Shown here piece by piece: positions 3,320 to 61,026 of a DNA stretch of 61,915 nt. The position numbers were made by a program, and so were the translations under genes. The stretch spans positions 1 through 61,915 of the forward strand of contig CALHNI010000010.1 in the NCBI GenBank assembly GCA_938034975.1. Direction: 5' to 3'. Positions within the stretch are counted from its first letter, which is position 1; each line of letters begins with the position of its first letter. The DNA comes from Candidatus Goldiibacteriota bacterium (GTDB taxonomy: Bacteria > Oederibacteriota > PGYV01 > DYJU01). The notes under the pieces are model-generated. The model did not search any database and was not told the DNA's origin. It was given only the letters and a program-made list of their open reading frames with translations.

Positions 3320-3505
3320 CCTGAAAATTGTATTAAAAGATTGTAATTTTCAGGAGAAAAAATACAAAAATTATATAATATTTATTATTTAAAAAATTAA
3401 ATATTCACTTTCATTTTATTTTAATTTTAAAAAACGGGCGAATAAAAATATTGCATTATAAAAAATAAAAATCTATTAAATAAAAATACGCCTTTTACTT
3501 ACGGT
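3320..3505 (-). repeat. Dispersed hairpin repeat, copy 2 (reverse orientation)
   Basis: CCTGAAAATTGTATTAAAAGATTGTAATTTTCAGG hairpin; AAAAAACGGGCGAATAAAAATATTGCATTATAAAAAATAAAAA core in reverse; ACGCCTTTTACTTACGG end. Confidence 0.8.
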
Positions 3506-10069: not shown

Positions 10070-10280
10070 TAGCAAAAAAAGCATTAGAAAATGTTTTTTC
10101 AAAAAAGATTTTTTTCATCTTATTTATTAAATTTTTTATTTTTATAATACACAATTTTTATTTACCTATTTATTAACTCAAATAAATGACAAGTATTAAT
10201 CAAAAAATTTAATTTGTTTAACAATATTTTATTGTAATTTTTCTGCTTTTAAATTTTAATTTTTAATTGAAATTTTCAGA
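10070..10280 (+). repeat. Dispersed hairpin repeat, copy 3 (degenerate, inside flagellar operon)
   Basis: AGCATTAGAAAATGTTTTTTC, TTATTTTTATAATACACAATTTTTATTTACCTATTTATTAA, terminal TTGAAATTTTCAGA. Confidence 0.65.
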
Positions 10281-19253: not shown

Positions 19254-19525
19254 AAATGATTTTTTCTGTCAAATGTTTTTTAAACTCGTAAAAGCGCATT
19301 AAAAATTGTGTTTTTACAGTTATATATTTTTTATTATTGTAGAAACAAGTTTTTTCATTGATGCTTTTGTTTCATTCGTATCTACAACCTTTATGGTTAG
19401 GTCTGTTTTTTAAAAACCCGCAGGCATAAAACCCGCGCCTACATTTTTTTATTTTTTCTCCAAATTTAATAAAGTAGGACTAATAGAATTCACTGCACTA
19501 TCGCCTGGCAATTTTTTTATTTAAA

Positions 19526-19747
19526 TCTGAAAATCGTATTAAAAGATTGCTATTTTTCAGGAGATAAAAACAAAAATGATATATTATTTAAAAAAATAAA
19601 ATATTCAAAATAACACTTGTTTTTTATTTAAAATAAAAAAACAGGTGAATAAAAGTAATGCATTATAAAAATAAAAATTTATTAAATAAAAATAATAAAA
19701 ATATTTTGTTTTTCCGTAAAAACGCGATTTCTAATGCGTTTTTACAG
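19526..19747 (-). repeat. Dispersed hairpin repeat, copy 4 (reverse orientation)
   Basis: CTGAAAATCGTATTAAAAGATTGCTATTTTTCAG hairpin; AAACAGGTGAATAAAAGTAATGCATTATAAAAATAAAAA core; CCGTAAAAACGCGATTTCTAATGCGTTTTTACAG hairpin. Confidence 0.85.
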
Positions 19748-19772
19748 ATGCAATTTTCTATTGTAATTTTAT

Positions 19773-21398: not shown

Positions 21399-21534
21399 AT
21401 ATAAAGACGTATTTGAAAACGTGTTTTTACGGCAAAAAAATTTTTTGTTTTTTTATTTTTTATCGTATCCCTTTTATTTTATTTGTCCGATTTTTAATTT
21501 AAAAGAAATCCCAATTTTATTTAGCGATTTTCAG
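21399..21534 (+). repeat. Dispersed hairpin repeat, copy 5 (degenerate)
   Basis: ACGTATTTGAAAACGTGTTTTTACGG hairpin end; CCTTTTATTTTATTTGTCCGATTTTTAATTTAAAA core; GCGATTTTCAG end. Confidence 0.6.
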
Positions 21535-23979: not shown

Positions 23980-24165
23980 GTAAAAACATTATAAATTAAA
24001 AATAAATTTATGTCTATATTTTTTTTAAATGCATTACTTTTATTCATCCGTTTTTTTTTAAAATAAAAAACAAGTGTTGTTTTGAATATTTTATTTTTTA
24101 AATAATATTATCATTTTTGTGTTTTTTTCTCCTAAAAATCGCAATTTTCAATCGCTATTTTCAGG
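23980..24165 (+). repeat. Dispersed hairpin repeat, copy 6
   Basis: AATGCATTACTTTTATTCATCCGTTTTTTTTTAAAATAAAAAACAAGTGTTGTTTTGAATATTTTA core; terminal CCTAAAAATCGC...GCTATTTTCAGG. Confidence 0.8.
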
Positions 24166-24261
24166 TATATCTGTAATATTTATTTAGACGAGCCAGAATA
24201 TATATTTGTTGCCAATTTAAAACAATAAATAATAATACAACAATTTGTTTTATTAAAAAAT

Positions 24262-32410: not shown

Positions 32411-33160
32411 TTAATTTCCCTTATTATAAATTATTTTTACCAGATATAATCCCTGTGGTGGTGCAATGTTTTTAATAATTGTTCTATCTTCTTTTTTAAA
32501 CATAAGTTCTATATCGTCTTTTGTCAATTTATCAAAAACAAATTCAATTAAACATCCAACTATCTTTCTTATCATATTATAAAGAAAACTCTGGCCAAAA
32601 AAATCAAAAATTATTATTTTATTTTCTTTTTTTATATTTATATTCAATATCTGTCTTTCATAATTTTTTATCCCGGGATCTGATGTTGTAAATGAAAAAT
32701 AATTTTTTTTCCCTTTAAAAAAAGGTAATATTTCTTTTATCTTTTTTATATCTATTTTCCTTTCAATATGCCATACATAATTTTTAAGAAATGGTGGTAG
32801 AAATAAACTGTTATAAATTAAATATCTATAAAATTTTTTTTTAACATTAACTCGTGCTAAAAAAGAATCAGGGGCATAAGAAACATTTTTTATTCTTATA
32901 TCATCGGGCAATAAAGAATTAAGTATTTTTTTTAATCCATAATCAGTTATTGGCGTATCCACTTTAAAATTAAAAACCTGACCTAAGGAATGAACCCCTG
33001 TATCTGTCCTGCTTGCCCCACAGATATTTATTTTTTTATTAAAAATCTTTTCCAGACAATACTCAATAACTCCCTGTATCGTTGGTAAATCCTTTTGCTT
33101 TTGCCAACCATAGTAATTTGTCCCATCATAACTTACAATACATTTAAAATTTTTAGTCAT
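32411..33160 (-). CDS. truA: tRNA pseudouridine(38-40) synthase
   Basis: VSYDGTNYYGWQKQ; GASRTDTGVHSLGQV. Confidence 0.96.
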   Translation of the reverse strand: MTKNFKCIVSYDGTNYYGWQKQKDLPTIQGVIEYCLEKIFNKKINICGASRTDTGVHSLGQVFNFKVDTPITDYGLKKILNSLLPDDIRIKNVSYAPDSFLARVNVKKKFYRYLIYNSLFLPPFLKNYVWHIERKIDIKKIKEILPFFKGKKNYFSFTTSDPGIKNYERQILNINIKKENKIIIFDFFGQSFLYNMIRKIVGCLIEFVFDKLTKDDIELMFKKEDRTIIKNIAPPQGLYLVKIIYNKGN

Positions 33161-33165
33161 ATTTT

Positions 33166-34158
33166 TTAATTTTCCTTTAAGGCAACTTTTATATTATTTC
33201 TGCCTGAATTTTTAGCCACATACAAAGCTTTATCTGCTTTTTCAATAAGCATTTGTTTTATAACTGCGTGCATTGGATATTCGGCTATTCCAGCACTTAT
33301 TCTAACGGGAATTATTTTGGAGCCACTGAAAAAAATATGTTCTTCTATTGCTTTCCGAATTTTTTCAGCAATTTGTTCAGCCTCCTCTATACCAGTTTCA
33401 GTTAAAATTATAGCAAATTCTTCACCGCCATAACGGCATAAAAAATCCGTACTTGATAAATTGCTTTTTATAACAGCAACAACTTCCTGTAAAACAGCAT
33501 CTCCTGTTTGATGTCCATATGTATCATTTATTCTTTTAAAATGGTCAATATCAACTATCAATAAACTTAACTTCATTCTAAACCTTTTTGCTAAAGTTAA
33601 TTCATCTTCAAGTTTGGTTTCAAAATATCTTCTATTAAAAGCACCTGTTAATTCATCAATGATTGCCTTCTTTTCGCTCATTTCCTTTTGCTCTCTTAAA
33701 ATATTTGTTGTTTCTCTTACCTGTTCAATAACTTCTTTTTCAAGTTGTTTTCCTGTTTGTCTTTTTAATTGATTTATTATTTCCAATGATTTATTTTTAA
33801 CTTCATTTTTAATAAGTTCTCTGAGTTCTTGTATTAATTTTTGTATTGCTTTTTCAATTTCTTTATTTATCTGATTTCTTACCTGTTTTCTAATATTTTT
33901 TCTTAATAATTTTAAAGTCACCATTTCTTTATTTACTGTTTTTTTTACTGCGCCCAAAACCATAACTATAATTTCTTTTTCAATCTGTTCGTTTATATCA
34001 GTTAAAAATGCCTCTTCCTTTTTTAATAGTTCTTCATATTTATCTTTTATATGTTCTTCAATTTTTTTTAATTTTTCTATGTCTTCTTTGATTTTTTTAA
34101 TTTCATTGCTGTCCAAAATACTCTCCTTTTTACATATTTTCTTTGGGTGTAATACCAA
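33166..34158 (-). CDS. Coiled-coil GGDEF diguanylate cyclase (soluble)
   Basis: ELTGAFNRRYFETKL; CRYGGEEFAIILTET. Confidence 0.93.
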   Translation of the reverse strand: MVLHPKKICKKESILDSNEIKKIKEDIEKLKKIEEHIKDKYEELLKKEEAFLTDINEQIEKEIIVMVLGAVKKTVNKEMVTLKLLRKNIRKQVRNQINKEIEKAIQKLIQELRELIKNEVKNKSLEIINQLKRQTGKQLEKEVIEQVRETTNILREQKEMSEKKAIIDELTGAFNRRYFETKLEDELTLAKRFRMKLSLLIVDIDHFKRINDTYGHQTGDAVLQEVVAVIKSNLSSTDFLCRYGGEEFAIILTETGIEEAEQIAEKIRKAIEEHIFFSGSKIIPVRISAGIAEYPMHAVIKQMLIEKADKALYVAKNSGRNNIKVALKEN

Positions 34159-35905: not shown

Positions 35906-36116
35906 CCGTAAAAACGCGTTAGAAAATGCGTTTTTACGAAAATATAAAATATTTTTGGCTTTTTTGCTTAATAATTTTTTATTTTTATAGTAAATTACTT
36001 TAATTCACCTGTTTTTTAATTTTAAAAACAAGGACACTCTTAAAATTCTTATTTGTTTATAAACCTTTTTTTATATTTTCTCTTTTCCCCTGAAAAACGC
36101 TAATGCGTTTTTCAGG
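35906..36116 (+). repeat. Dispersed hairpin repeat, copy 7a (near-identical to copy 9)
   Basis: CCGTAAAAACGCGTTAGAAAATGCGTTTTTACG hairpin ... CCTGAAAAACGC-TAAT-GCGTTTTTCAGG hairpin. Confidence 0.92.
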
Positions 36117-36272
36117 TTTTTTATTATTTTTATTTATAATGCATTTTTTTATTCACCCGTTTTTTAATTTAAAATAAAGCTCAAATCTGATTTAAATATT
36201 TATTTTTAAATAATTTATTATTTTTGTGTTTTTTTCTCCTGAAAATCGCAATCTTTTAATGCGATTTTCTGG
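36117..36272 (+). repeat. Dispersed hairpin repeat, copy 7b (tandem to 7a)
   Basis: AATGCATTTTTTTATTCACCCGTTTTTTAATTTAAAATAAAG core; terminal CCTGAAAATCGC...GCGATTTTCTGG. Confidence 0.82.
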
Positions 36273-40073: not shown

Positions 40074-41404
40074 TTTTTATTTTCCATGTTTAACAATTTT
40101 TCAATTTTTTCTTTCAAAATTATTATATCAGCGTTTTTATTATCTATTTTTTCAGCTTCTTTTAAATCATTTAATGCTTCTTTATATTTACCACTAATAT
40201 ACATCATCTGGGCATTTTTGTAAAACAATTTTATTTTACTATCCATTTGTTTGGGAGTAATTTCTATTTTACCTGATGTTTCTTTTTCTATTCCATTATA
40301 TACCGCATATATTTCTATGGTATATTCAAGTCCATTTTCAAGATTTTCTATTAAAAAATTTGCTTCTGAACTTTTAGCATTTTTTTCCTTAATTATATTC
40401 TCGCCACTTTTAGATTTAATATATACTCTATAAATATCCGGTTTTCCAAAATTAGATACCCATTTTATATATGCTTTTTTATCACCTGAAAATATTTTAA
40501 CATTTATAGGTGATAAATAGTTATCATAAAACAAAGAAATTTTTAAATCAATTTTATGAGTTACGCCTAGTTCTTCTGTATGATTTAAAAACGAATAATT
40601 GATTTCATAATTTTTTGTTAAAATTCCAAAACCAAAAGTTAAGCTTGATAATACAGTTGTAAAACCCGAATAGCCAATCCTTAATGAAATAAAATTTATT
40701 TTTTTTTCAAGACCGAATTTTATCATTGTTTTATAATTATTTATAAACTTTTTGTCATTAATAATATCAATGTCACAGGTTAAATTAAATAAATCATTAG
40801 AAATATAACCGATCCCGGATTTTATCAGCAATGGGATTTTTTCTTCTATACCATTTTTCCATCTTATACTTGATTGCATATCAAAGATTGACAGTCCAAA
40901 ATTTATACTATCTGCTAAAAGAGTATTTTTAATTTTATAAATAACCCCAATATCTGCGCTTAACGCATAAGCATTGCCATCATATAAAGCATAGAGATAT
41001 TTTAAATTAATACCTGTTCCCAATTCCTTTTCTTTATCAATTAAAATCGGGAATGAAAAAGTTAAAGAATATATATCTTCCCGTGTATTATCACCATTTA
41101 AATATGAAAGTCCGGAAAGTGCCGCAGTTAAATAAGGTGAAAAATTATTTAAAATAATTGCTCCCAAAACATTCCTTTTAATATTCACAATTCCGCCATA
41201 AAAACCTGAAAATTCAAAATTTTTTATGTGATAAATACCGGCCGGATTATAATATATTGAACTTAAATCTTCATAGGCACAGAAAGCGCTGCCCATTGCC
41301 GAAGATTTTGCTCCAGGAACCAGCACGCCACCTTTTTCATAAACACCATAAATATTAAAAGCAAAAATCAATATTAATAAAATTATTTTAAAAATTTCTT
41401 TCAC
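40070..41404 (-). CDS. PorV/UPF0164-like outer-membrane protein with Fn3 and C-terminal TPR
   Basis: PGAKSSAMGSAFCAYEDLSSIYYNPAGIYHI; GLEYTIEIYAVYNG; YISGKYKEALNDLKEAEKIDNKNAD. Confidence 0.75.
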   Translation of the reverse strand: MKEIFKIILLILIFAFNIYGVYEKGGVLVPGAKSSAMGSAFCAYEDLSSIYYNPAGIYHIKNFEFSGFYGGIVNIKRNVLGAIILNNFSPYLTAALSGLSYLNGDNTREDIYSLTFSFPILIDKEKELGTGINLKYLYALYDGNAYALSADIGVIYKIKNTLLADSINFGLSIFDMQSSIRWKNGIEEKIPLLIKSGIGYISNDLFNLTCDIDIINDKKFINNYKTMIKFGLEKKINFISLRIGYSGFTTVLSSLTFGFGILTKNYEINYSFLNHTEELGVTHKIDLKISLFYDNYLSPINVKIFSGDKKAYIKWVSNFGKPDIYRVYIKSKSGENIIKEKNAKSSEANFLIENLENGLEYTIEIYAVYNGIEKETSGKIEITPKQMDSKIKLFYKNAQMMYISGKYKEALNDLKEAEKIDNKNADIIILKEKIEKLLNMENKK

Positions 41405-43299
41405 TTTTTTATTCCTTTTATTTTACTTTTAAGTTCAATTGCCGGCATAAAATTTTTATCCTGTTCTAATATATTTGCCAATATTTTCTCAGCTTTTTCA
41501 TACTCATTTTTAATATAATAACACAAAGCCAAATTATAATTCAAGTATTTTGAATTTTTATCATATTTTAATCCATTTCTTAATGTATTTAATGCTTTAT
41601 CAATTTCACCTTTTTGTATATATATGGTTCCCAAATTGTTATATGCAGATTTATATGTTGGATTGAATTTTAATAACTTTTCGTAAATTTCACCTGCACT
41701 TTCCAACTCTCCATTATTTGACAAAGAATTTCCTAAATTATAATAAGCAGAAGAAAAATACGGAAAAAGTTTTATTGCTTTTAAAAAATAAATTTTTGCT
41801 TCTTCATAGTTTTTTAAAAAATTTAATGCTGTTCCTGAATAAAAATTTAGTTGATAATCATCTTTTATAATTTCTTTATATTTAGCAATATAATTATGCA
41901 TATTTTCTAAATTACCCTTTGCCAATTGATAAGAAAAGTATTGAATTAAATAATATCTTTCATAAAAATTTTTTGTGAATTTTATATTTAAAAAAATCAT
42001 AATAAAAATAATAAACAAAATTATTAATTTGAATTGACTATTAATTCTGATTATCTTGAAATCATCTTTATCACATAATATAAAACCAGATAATATATAA
42101 AAAAAAATTACAAATGGATTGGAAAACGGGAAATTAAAGATTGCAAATATTAATACTCCTGACATTGAAATTATAAATGGATAATAAATGTTGTTGTCTT
42201 TATCGTGTTTTTTTATAAATTTATAAAAAGGATAAAATAAAAGTAACAAAAAAATAAAAAAAGCTGTTATACCCTGTTCAGATAAAACCTGAATATAATC
42301 ATTATGCGAATATGCTTCATCATGAACTTCTATGTAATCAGGGAAATTTTTTTTGCCATATAAAATTCCCTGATAATATGGTGTAAAAATTCTGTAATTT
42401 CCAGATCCTACGCCGAAAATAGGATAATTCTTTATCATTAAAAAAGATGATTCCCATAAAAATTTTCTTATATTTATAGAATCATGTTTTTTACTTAAAA
42501 AAACAAAAGCATTTACAAATAAAACAACTATACTTAAAAATAACATTAACAATATAATTTTTTTATATTTAAGGTTAAATTTTTGTAAAATTATTTTAAT
42601 AAAAAATATAAAAAAAATAATTATCTGACATAATATGCTAATTATTCCGCTTAAACTTTTTGTTAATAATAATGAAATAAAGTTTAATAATATAAAAAAT
42701 AAAAAAATTATCCTGTTATTTTCAATATATTTATAAATCAGTAAAGGTAATAAAATAATAAGATAAACAGCATAATTATCCGGATTTCCAAATATACTAT
42801 AAATTCTGGAATTGAATGTATTTTTATTTAAAAAAGGTATTTCAAAAAATTTCATAAATGACAGATATTGAAAAATGCCGATAATTATTATAAAAAAATT
42901 TATAAATGTCATAAAATCTATTATTTTCCTAATATTTTGATTTTGAGAAGATATATAAAATATAATTATAAATGATATACACAGCCAAACAAATAATCTT
43001 TCCTGCAAAACTAATATGTTTTTTTCAAAATTATTAATTCCTGATATAAAAATTGAAAAAATAAATGCCAATATAATTATTTTGTATAAGTTTAAATTAA
43101 AATAAATATCTTTTTTTAAAAATATAATAACGGCAAGCCCAACAAGCAAAAAAAGCATAAGAACAAATGCATAAATTTCTTTAATGGAATAAGTAAAATA
43201 AAAAATATAAGGAATTAAAAAAAATAAACTTAAATTCAGATAAGACAAAACATTTATTTCGGTAATTTTTCTTAAATATTTTAACACCATTAAATTCAA
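41401..43299 (-). CDS. O-antigen ligase / Wzy-type polytopic membrane protein fused to TPRs
   Basis: [17 protein letters not shown]...[28 protein letters not shown]-terminal TPRs. Confidence 0.85.
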
Positions 43300-43768: not shown

Positions 43769-46207
43769 TTATTTTTTCCTTTTTCTTAGTTGTTCAAGCG
43801 GTTCAATAGCTCTTTTATCCTGCGGGTCAAGTTTTAAAACTTTTTCATACATTTCAATTGCTTTTTCATTATTATTTATCATTGTATATAGTTTCCCTAA
43901 ATTTAAATAACCTTCTTTATAATCAGGTCTTATATTAACTGCCTTTTCAAACATTTTTATCGCATTCTCATAATCTCTTAAATTAACATAAATAATTGCA
44001 AGATTACTATAAGTTGATGCCTCTGAAACATAATCTCTGAACCATTGTTTCTTATCTATTGCCTGTTCATAATAATATTTTGCTTCACCAATTTTTTCTA
44101 TACCCTGCAACATATTTATATAACCTAAATAACTAAAAGGTGTTGCAAAACCAGGATAAATTTCAGTGTATCTTTTGCATATTTCTGTTGCTTTATCCCA
44201 TTGACGCATATTTATATAAATTGTAGCAAGATCAAGGCCAAAATAAGCATTATTTGGGTCTCTTTCTATGGCTTGGTTATACAGCATTATTGCTTCGTTG
44301 TATTTGGAACTATCTATTGTTTCCCCATAAAATTTATATACCCTTGCTAAATTATTATAATTATAACCATTCATATTATTCATTTTTATTGTATGAGAAT
44401 GAATATTTATTGCCTGGTTTATAAAAAATAATCTTTTATTTATATCCTGTTGTTCACGCATCGCTCTTTCATATGCAATCCCGTATTTAACCCAGTAAAT
44501 TTCCCTATATGGATTTAATATAACTGATTTTGCATAATAAGGTATTGCAAGTTCATTCTGATTTGCTGTTACACCTATATTACCTATTTTAAAATAAATA
44601 TCCGCTGCCCAGAAACGAATTAAATAAATTTCTAAAATCACACATAAAAAAATCAGTAAAAAAACTATAAATTTTTTATTTTTTTCTATTAAATCAGAAA
44701 ATTTTTTGGAAAAATTATAAATATAAAACTTTTTCTGGGAACTATCAAATGATATTATAACTCCAAGAGAAAGCCAGAAAACTAGTCCATAAGCAACAAC
44801 AGTATAATTAAATAATCCCTGAATAGTATATGCTATAACAGCCATAAAAATTGAAAATATAATGTAGCGTTGAATAATATTTTTTTCATTAAATATGAGA
44901 TTAAATGACTTTTTAAAAAAAGAAATAAAAATTAAAATAAAAAAACTAAATCCTAAAATTCCCTGAGTTGACAAAATCTGTAAAAATATATTGTGGGTTT
45001 TCTCGGGTGTCCCATTCCATTCAAGTTGCCAGTATATAGGAAATCTATAATAAGGAAACATAACCTGAAATGTATCAAGCCCAGTTCCAAAAATAGGATA
45101 ATCACGAAACATCATAAGCGCACTTTTCCATATATAAATCCTCGGGGTCATTACAATTCCGGTAAAAGAAAATAACATTTTGCTTCTTTGCCATAAAGTA
45201 TTAAAAGCTTCCTGAATTTTGGGTATAAATAAAGATAATACAAGTAAAATTGCAAATGCCAAAAACCATCTCTTATTTTTTTTAAAAAGTTCATTTTCTT
45301 CTTTTCTTGCATCTATAAAAGTATAAATAATTATTGCAAATACTGTAAATAAAAAACTTATAAAGCCGGCTCTTGATTTTGTTAAAAAAAGAACCAAGAT
45401 TGAAAAAATTAAAACTAAAAGTATAAAAAGTTTTAATGCTAAATTTGAAAGATGATATGAAAATTTCTGATTTATATTCTTTATAAATAAAACAAATCCT
45501 GTTGTTAAAATAAAAAATAATGTTGCATAAATAAAATTCACTTTAAGATAAATTAAAATAGCAATAATAAAAAAACCCGTAACAATCAATGGGGTTATTA
45601 TTTTTTCAGGTGTTTTATGAATTATAAAAAACAATATAAAAAGAACCGGTATTGTTTCTACCAAATAAGCAGCCAGAAAATTTGGATTACCAAGCGTTGA
45701 AAAAAATCTTTCAGGGCTATAAGTTTCCGGATTCCATTTCACAAAATCCCAGCCTAAATTTTGAGCTAGTCCATATAAAGAAACAATTAAGGAAGCAATC
45801 ACAATTGCCATTAGTATTTTGTAAATATTATTTATTTTGTTTACAAAATTAACAACCAAATAGTAAAAACAAAAATAATTTAAAACAGTTAATATACCTT
45901 CAAAATCTTCATAGACTCCATAAACAGAAGTTAAAAAATTTTTAGTTATAAAAGTAGTTATAATTGACATAATCAAATAACCAACAATCGGGAAATCAAA
46001 ATTTGTTTTAATAAGTAATATACGTTTTTCAAGTGTAAATTTAATGAAGGCAAGAGATACTGAAAAAACTGTAAAAAATCTTAAGATAAACATTTTATTT
46101 ATTTCAAAAACATCATTTGTCATTGTGTAAAAAATTATAGGTGTTAATAAAACAACAGTAACCACACTTATCTCAATGTATTTTTCAATAAATTTTTTTA
46201 AAAGCAA
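43769..46207 (-). CDS. O-antigen ligase / Wzy-type polytopic membrane protein fused to TPRs (paralog)
   Basis: [18 protein letters not shown]...[24 protein letters not shown]-terminal TPRs. Confidence 0.86.
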
Positions 46208-46225: not shown

Positions 46226-46648
46226 TTAATATATTGTATAACAATTTCCAAGTATATCATTTGCAATTGAATTTATGTATACATCCCCATTTATATAATT
46301 ATAATACCAGCCGCTACCTAAAGTATTTGGAATTCCTGAGCCCAAAGTTACGCCGTTACCAAAAGGTGAATTTGAATATGGCCTTTTTACTTTAACATAA
46401 GGGATTGTTTCACCTATGAATTTTTTAAATTCTGGACACACATTAACATCTATTGTTGGTGGCAAATTTAAATTTTCTGCTGTATATATATTGATCGCCG
46501 AGCGCAAAGAAGATAAATTTCCAAGAGTTGCACCTAAATTTGCCCGCTCAATTGCTTCGCCATATTTTGGCAAAGCAATACCAACAAGTAATCCCAAAAT
46601 GCCAACAATAATCAAAAGTTCAATTAAAGTAAATGCACTTTTTTTCAT
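46226..46648 (-). CDS. Type IV pilin-like / pseudopilin protein
   Basis: KSAFTLIELLIIVGILGLLVGIALPKYGEAIERA prepilin motif. Confidence 0.92.
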   Translation of the reverse strand: MKKSAFTLIELLIIVGILGLLVGIALPKYGEAIERANLGATLGNLSSLRSAINIYTAENLNLPPTIDVNVCPEFKKFIGETIPYVKVKRPYSNSPFGNGVTLGSGIPNTLGSGWYYNYINGDVYINSIANDILGNCYTIY

Positions 46649-46651
46649 AAA

Positions 46652-47299
46652 TTATATTATAAACTTTTCTGATGATTTTTTTAAATCATTAACAATCTTA
46701 TCCAATTCTATTATAGCATCTTTTACATCACTTTTTAAATCCTTCTGTGTATTCAGATCATTTTTTAATTTTTGTGTTATTAAAAATATCCTGTCTATAA
46801 TTTGTCTGTTTTCTTTAACAAGTGATTTCAATCCATTTATAACTTTATTTAAAGATTCTGCTATATCATGAAATTCATCTCCTTTTCTGAATTTAACATG
46901 TTGATTTAAATTTCCTTTTGCCAGTTCATCACATATCCTCTTTACCCTGAATAATGGTCCTGCTATTTTATGGGAGTAAAATATACCAATTAAAGAAAAT
47001 ATTACCAATAAAATTATAATAGGAATTATAAGAAGTTCTGATGTTTTAATGAAAATGTTAACTAATTTTTTTGATGCTTCAGGTATAAAGAAATACTCTT
47101 TAATTACATTTGACCATATTATATAAAAAGTTGTAAATGATACTGAAACTACAGTTACCAGCATAACACCAATAATAATAAATAAATATTTGAATTGAAA
47201 AGATTTGTTTATTATATATATATGCCGTTTATATTTTTTTTCCATTTTTTTCTCCCTTTTTAAATTAATAAGTTGTATAACTTTTACCATCAATATCAA
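46652..47299 (-). CDS. Membrane HAMP-domain protein without recognisable output domain (start likely about 47245)
   Basis: Two TM helices; IAGPLFRVKRICDELAKGNLNQHVKFRKGDEFHDIAESLNKVI HAMP. Confidence 0.82.
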   Translation of the reverse strand: MILMVKVIQLINLKREKKMEKKYKRHIYIINKSFQFKYLFIIIGVMLVTVVSVSFTTFYIIWSNVIKEYFFIPEASKKLVNIFIKTSELLIIPIIILLVIFSLIGIFYSHKIAGPLFRVKRICDELAKGNLNQHVKFRKGDEFHDIAESLNKVINGLKSLVKENRQIIDRIFLITQKLKNDLNTQKDLKSDVKDAIIELDKIVNDLKKSSEKFII

Positions 47300-47693
47300 T
47301 GGCTATTGAATTTATGTATACTTCCCCATTGGTATAATTATAATACCATCCACTACCAAAAGTATTTGGAACCGCTGTTCCCAGAGTTACTCCATTTCCA
47401 TAAGGCGGATTTGAATATGGTCTTTTTGCTTTTACATATGGAAGAGTATTTCCTATATTTTCTCTAAAGGCAATACAAGAAGCAGGATCAATTGTAGGTG
47501 GCCACCCCATGTTATTAGAATAATATATAGAAAGCGCTGAACGAATTGATGTTAAATTGCCCATGGTTGCACCTAAATTTGCCTTTTCAAGTAAATCCCC
47601 ATATTTAGGAATAGCAATTGCTACAAGTAAACCTATCATTGCAACAACTACTAGAAGTTCTATTAAGGTAAATGAATTTTTTTTGTAAATCAA
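47265..47693 (-). CDS. Type IV pilin-like / pseudopilin protein (paralog)
   Basis: KNSFTLIELLVVVAMIGLLVAIAIPKYGDLLEKANLGATMGNL. Confidence 0.93.
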   Translation of the reverse strand: MIYKKNSFTLIELLVVVAMIGLLVAIAIPKYGDLLEKANLGATMGNLTSIRSALSIYYSNNMGWPPTIDPASCIAFRENIGNTLPYVKAKRPYSNPPYGNGVTLGTAVPNTFGSGWYYNYTNGEVYINSIAIDIDGKSYTTY

Positions 47694-50591: not shown

Positions 50592-50811
50592 TTACCTTTT
50601 AAAAATTGTTAGAAAAAGTGTTTTTTAGGGGAAATAAAATTTTTTTATATATATTATTTAATAAATTTTTATTTTAAAAATACATTACTTTTATTCCCAG
50701 TTTTTTTATTTTAAATAAAACATACGCATTGTTTTGAAAATTTATTTTTCTAATAATATTTTTATTGTATTTTTTCCATTAAAATCACAATTTTCTATTG
50801 CAATTTTTAGT
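50592..50811 (+). repeat. Dispersed hairpin repeat, copy 8
   Basis: CCTTTTAAAAATTGTTAGAAAAAGTGTTTTTTAGGG; AATACATTACTTTTATTCCCAGTTTTTTTATTTTAAATAAAAC core; AAAATCACAATTTTCTATTGCAATTTTTAG end. Confidence 0.7.
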
Positions 50812-60816: not shown

Positions 60817-61026
60817 CCGTAAAAACGCGTTAGAAAATGTGTTTTTACGGAAATATAAAATATTTTTGGCTTTTTTGCTTAATAATTTTTTATTTTTATA
60901 GTAAATTACTTTTATTCACCTGTTTTTTAATTTTAAAAACAAATACACTCTTAAAATCTTATTTGTTTATTAACCTTTTTATATATTTTCTCTTTTCCCC
61001 TGAAAAACGCTAATGCGTTTTTCAGG
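60817..61026 (+). repeat. Dispersed hairpin repeat, copy 9 (near-identical to 7a)
   Basis: CCGTAAAAACGCGTTAGAAAATGTGTTTTTACGG ... CCTGAAAAACGC-TAAT-GCGTTTTTCAGG; only about ten differences from 35906-36116 by eye. Confidence 0.92.

Follow-up and report, generated by a model that had tools for sequence, protein, structure and literature searches.

IS elements of the IS1380 family (NF033539/PF13701) generate target duplications of 4–5 bp. Within this family, IS1247 is listed with a 5-bp duplication (PMC3281130, Table 2), and the same source gives a 6-bp duplication for an IS1634 element (PMC3281130). The dispersed element described here, a MITE of 210–220 bp that is non-coding, shares with IS1380-family elements an end starting with CC, a CGCGTTAGAA-type subterminal block and the 5-bp duplications reported for the family, and IS1380 relics and fusions occur in its own genome. 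Unlike them, it carries no transposase gene, has an unrelated interior and a near-perfect hairpin at each end, is present in far higher copy number, and has produced many 6-bp duplications.

Among described bacterial MITEs, Correia (204 bp), Chunjie (178–235 bp) and QMITE2 (~190 bp) are of comparable size (reviewed in PMC10969869). The present element resembles them in being ~200 bp long, non-coding and mostly intergenic, in having terminal inverted repeats and target duplications, and in its many truncated copies and lineage-restricted burst (PMC10969869), but differs in sequence and ends, its probable parent being IS1380-like. TIMEs (PMC4133298) are likewise non-autonomous and generate 5–6-bp duplications at AT-rich targets; they derive from Tn3 transposons, whereas the ends found here are IS1380-like. 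REP/BIME elements associated with RAYT are also palindromic, abundant and extragenic (PMC2817692), but the MITE has target duplications and its genome contains no Y1 transposase. The titles and abstracts of the literature searched contain no IS1380-derived MITE, and the text of the review PMC10969869 does not mention IS1380. The family is new; the kind of element is well known, and its biology is otherwise that of ordinary mobile elements.

Copies in the window and in the draft genome

The source draft genome comprises 1.93 Mb in 66 contigs and is 84% complete. The window, that is, the whole stretch of 61,915 nt analysed here, is the entire contig C10, and position 1 is a true contig end. The element was located in it 13 times, as whole copies or as fragments, lying between predicted genes. 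The copies divide into an older subfamily of ~220 bp and a younger subfamily of ~210 bp, the members of the latter being 84–97% identical. Alignment of tens of young copies with unrelated flanks revealed sharp outer limits, CCGTAAAAACGC on the left and GCGTTTTTCAGG on the right. The terminal inverted repeats are imperfect and ~17–20 nt long, with 15 of 17 positions agreeing between the left end (CCGTAAAAACGCATTAG) and the complement of the right end (CCTGAAAAACGCATTAG), and each end forms the outer arm of a hairpin. The left hairpin has a 12-bp stem and a loop of ~10 nt, and the right hairpin has a 12-bp stem whose loop measures 4 nt in young copies and is longer in older ones. A central imperfect palindrome (CACCTG...CAAGTG) can be made out clearly only in older copies. 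Some copies are hybrids, such as that at C1:127528, in which an old-type left part is joined to a young-type right part. The bases in the ‘loop’ of the left hairpin, ATTAGAAA, are strongly conserved, suggesting that they belong to an end recognised by the transposase.

Two full-length young copies lie on the plus strand of the window, at 35906–36116 (211 bp, supported by alignment and profiles) and 60817–61026 (210 bp). The initial annotation had called them nearly identical, and we confirmed 96% identity over 210 bp. In the former, the left end hairpin occupies 35906–35939 and starts with CCGTAAAAACGC, the right end hairpin occupies 36089–36116 (CCTGAAAAACGCTAATGCGTTTTTCAGG), and TTTTTT is found on either side, a possible 6-bp target duplication within a T-run. 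Directly 3′ of it, profiles placed an older-subfamily copy without its left part at 36133–36272 (plus strand), ending with the hairpin CCTGAAAATCGC...GCGATTTTCTGG. The stretch 36117–36272, rightly listed before as a related copy and joined there with 35906–36116 in one feature, is a separate unit, older and left-truncated, and was probably interrupted by the younger copy. The best older copy of the window is the full-length one at 19527–19749 on the minus strand (profile match at 19532–19745 plus both terminal bases).

The other copies were identified by profile matches. At the contig start, where a single copy site (1–512) had been proposed, the element is present as three adjacent plus-strand units: the right part of a young copy at 2–130, within which the contig starts, an older copy at 139–313, and the degraded left part of an older copy at 331–463 (22 bits). 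Older copies were also found at 3326–3489 (minus strand, left end eroded), 10075–10245 (degraded), 21402–21514 (left part), 24028–24166 (right part) and 50608–50811 (left end eroded), the last four on the plus strand. Profile searches thereby recovered every one of the eight further places where related copies had been claimed, corrected the strand of 3326–3489 and 19532–19745 to minus, and added a probable solitary left-end hairpin at 19287–19326 (plus strand; weak match, 14.5 bits). Two gene pairs elsewhere in the window were also recorded: tandem paralogous type-IV-pilin-like genes with an N-methylation motif and DNA repeats 73–76% alike (46226–46648 and 47265–47693), and neighbouring genes for large O-antigen-ligase-like (Wzy_C) proteins, both of which carry a TPR array at the C-terminus (41401–43299 and 43769–46207).

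For an unbiased estimate of density, two profiles were applied to a 454-kb sample consisting of stretches of contigs C1, C5 and C7 together with the window. This analysis detected 73 non-overlapping copies or fragments, i.e., 16 per 100 kb, amounting to 2.4% of the sequence and to roughly one third of its non-coding part; extrapolation suggests ~300 copies genome-wide. When a young copy was used as query against the genome, 40 candidate regions were scored out of 358 first-look candidates; an older copy retrieved a further, largely different set, and BLAST E-values reached 1e-106. The end motif CCNNAAAAACGCATTAG, with at most two mismatches, occurs 250 times genome-wide, compared with 16 times for a reversed-pattern control. 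The motif count, E-values and density argue against chance; the initial annotation had named a lack of further copies, or a likeness due to AT bias, as grounds for refutation, and neither applies, copies being abundant in the genome.

According to a simple codon-bias gene predictor, genes cover ~92% of the DNA in the 454-kb sample, and in 67 of the 73 copies (~92%) any overlap with a predicted gene is no longer than 30 bp. In gaps between genes of the same direction, 30 copies are oriented opposite to the genes and 11 with them; a rather unlikely reading of this bias is that the copies might serve the host as transcription-unit boundaries. Contig ends lie inside the element at C4:1, C10:1, C13:1, C24:1 and C61:1 and at the ends of C6, C20 and C48. 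The practical effect is that near-identical copies at many contig ends break the assembly of this genome; since the window is the whole of C10, the break inside the copy at position 1 is one such case.

Insertion and decay of the copies

Strictly adjacent flanks of the 59 full-length copies revealed 5-bp target duplications in 11 (0.8 expected) and 6-bp duplications in 8 (0.3 expected), together 19 of 59 against ~1.1 expected when flanks were re-paired among copies. Duplications of 3, 4 or 8 bp showed no excess over chance in this set, and a looser test agreed with the strict one. One young copy (L002) has inserted into an older one, within its right hairpin, with TGCGA duplicated. Furthermore, the region upstream of argS in the genus-mate G001 remains alignable until 4 bp short of the insertion at 35906, and the element is absent there. 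These duplications, the nested copy and the element-free shared locus indicate transposition by a DDE-type route. A seemingly different dispersed intergenic repeat (...GCGAGATTGCTTC...CTTCTGGTG.TGAACTATTAC...) was observed in G001 at the argS locus and beside an IS1380 copy (L112 3272–3524 and L100 1121–1345).

The initial annotation had also entertained a lineage-specific structured RNA, and a regulatory or non-coding RNA with hairpins conserved for function would agree with the mostly intergenic position of the copies and with predicted folding of single copies far stronger than that of shuffled sequences (z of -7.2 and -4.7), although such folding is expected of any sequence with hairpin ends. 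The stems of the older subfamily argue the other way, as one-sided changes outnumber compensated ones by 91:5 in the left, 69:5 in the right and 155:5 in the central stem, that is, by ~14:1 or more in all three, and stem positions vary about as often as the rest of the element. Substitutions of this one-sided kind indicate that the hairpins decay after insertion. In addition, the copies were inserted with target duplications and decay freely, and an Rfam scan of the window returned no match at the gathering threshold. The uncompensated stem changes and the empty Rfam search led us to reject the RNA reading, to which we attach a very slight probability, despite the folding energies; the family is a MITE and not a structured RNA.

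Between the subfamilies, the right stem changed from AATCGC/GCGATT to AAACGC/GCGTTT, a compensated change, and the hairpin shape was thus kept in the mobile lineage, unlike in resident copies. Such maintenance fits a role of the hairpin in transposition or its origin as a by-product of it.

Ends of the element and candidate movers

Three transposase families (PF01609, PF13701 and PF01797) were searched for in the draft genome. PF13701, the IS1380 family, gave six matches, all fragments or broken genes, of which the longest open piece matched the IS1380 transposase model NF033539 with E=7.6e-36. Several of the IS relics have a common right end, which reads CCCTAAAATCGCGATAGAAACATG from outside inwards on C36, C64 and, with one mismatch, C65. 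Compared with the left end of the MITE, CCGTAAAAACGCGTTAGAAA, it is identical at 17 of 20 positions, and among 870,963 element-free sample positions none matched CCGTAAAAACGCGTTAGAAA when 3 mismatches were allowed, nor when 4 were; the left IS end is a poorer match to the MITE. In three relics (L092, L093 and L094), IS sequence starts at one common internal point, where it directly abuts a copy of the hairpin that forms the right end of the MITE. Such junctions suggest past use of this hairpin as a mobile terminus of IS DNA. Two further arrangements were noted near relics: on C36, a decayed stretch resembling the C-terminus of an IS4-type transposase (L089 1450–1650) adjoins an IS1380 relic, and at L106 (C5 ~33032–33200) an IS1380 left-end fragment has on either side one of two near-identical ~150-bp repeats that start with MITE-like hairpins (CCTGAAAATCAATAT...); this may be another variant of the element or a tandem duplication.

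The genus-mate G001 encodes an intact IS1380 transposase of 438 aa (L100 1477–2793; NF033539, E=2.9e-85). Its IS has a sharp right end, CCCAAAAATCGCGTTAGAA, found at three places, which in an ungapped alignment is identical to the left end of the MITE at 16 of 19 positions; there is no MITE expansion around this IS end in G001 (5 matches vs 6 in the control). In the draft genome no intact transposase was found, its IS1380 genes all being broken, and the 454-kb sample showed no autonomous element in which MITE-like ends enclose an intact transposase. MITE profiles gave no significant match to the interior of the longest IS relic. This difference in interior suggests that the MITE borrowed or evolved its ends and was mobilised by the IS1380 element of the draft genome, rather than arising by simple internal deletion of it.

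Direct observation covers the ends of the MITE, its target duplications and its spread through the genome; the mover, judged from the matching ends and the fusion elements, is very probably an IS1380-family transposase. We therefore regard it as highly likely that the family was mobilised in trans by a DDE transposase of this family, with staggered insertion of 5–6 bp and neutral decay afterwards. By analogy with the IS1380 family as regards binding, excision and joining, the transposase, supplied in trans, would recognise the ~20-nt MITE ends (consensus CC..AAAAnCGC.nTAGAA), cut the MITE out and insert it through 5–6-bp staggered cuts, mostly at AT-rich intergenic sites, where the copies would then decay neutrally.

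The mixed duplication lengths, 5 bp in 11 copies and 6 bp in 8, the latter differing from the 5 bp of IS1247, bear on an alternative in which a different DDE transposase, now lost, moved the family and the likeness to IS1380 ends is convergent. An enzyme of the IS1634/IS4 group would suit the 6-bp duplications (6 bp for IS1634, PMC3281130) and a Tn3-like one would recall TIMEs, which duplicate 5–6 bp in AT-rich sites (PMC4133298); moreover, a short degraded fragment of DDE_Tnp_1 (PF01609; IS4/IS5/IS1634-type) is present on C36. That fragment is the single trace of PF01609 and lies below threshold, the draft genome having no match above the cut-off. The MITE also lacks the 38-bp GGGG ends of Tn3-type elements, and the end match to the IS1380 relics, unparalleled among 0.87 million control positions, together with the three IS1380–MITE fusions, leaves this alternative improbable. 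The initial annotation had further suggested REP-like elements and a search for TnpA_REP/RAYT. Palindromic ends and intergenic abundance are indeed REP-like, but Y1_Tnp (PF01797) is absent from the draft genome, whereas control genomes were positive in the identical search; no GTAG-type head was seen, and 5–6-bp target duplications are not expected of the Y1 route. Spread of these copies by a Y1 transposase consequently deserves next to no credence, the least of the explanations weighed here.

Hosts and significance

In 40 other genomes, ranging from genus to phylum, no significant copy was detected, merely short AT-rich chance matches, and viral contigs scanned with the exact left-hairpin pattern gave none. 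A scan of 85k genomes yielded a single copy, which lies at one end of a 3.2-kb contig assigned to the MAG Ca. Calidifonticultor daggyaiensis, and the gene on this contig has no match in the source draft genome. The contig may represent a second host, sequence of a related strain that was misbinned, or a region missing from the draft. The family is so far found in essentially one species, and the part of the initial annotation that proposed a lineage-specific mobile element is supported by the inverted repeats, the 5–6-bp duplications, the nesting, the empty G001 locus and this restricted distribution. Because the IS1380 transposase genes of the draft genome are all broken, the family may currently have no means of moving, unless the missing ~16% of the genome encodes an intact transposase.

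This MITE burst is large, with ~300 copies in less than 2 Mb and a probable IS1380-family parent, and its hairpin-tipped ends raise the question of why some MITEs heavily outnumber their parent. One rather unlikely answer is that the hairpin ends are themselves functional, the motif recognised by the transposase occurring twice, face to face, in each of them. Transposition of the MITE could then proceed from the outer end, from the inner end or through extrusion of a cruciform, or solitary hairpins could move. If true, this would explain why the family has amplified so far beyond its parent IS and would make it a distinct mechanistic class of IS1380-type MITE.
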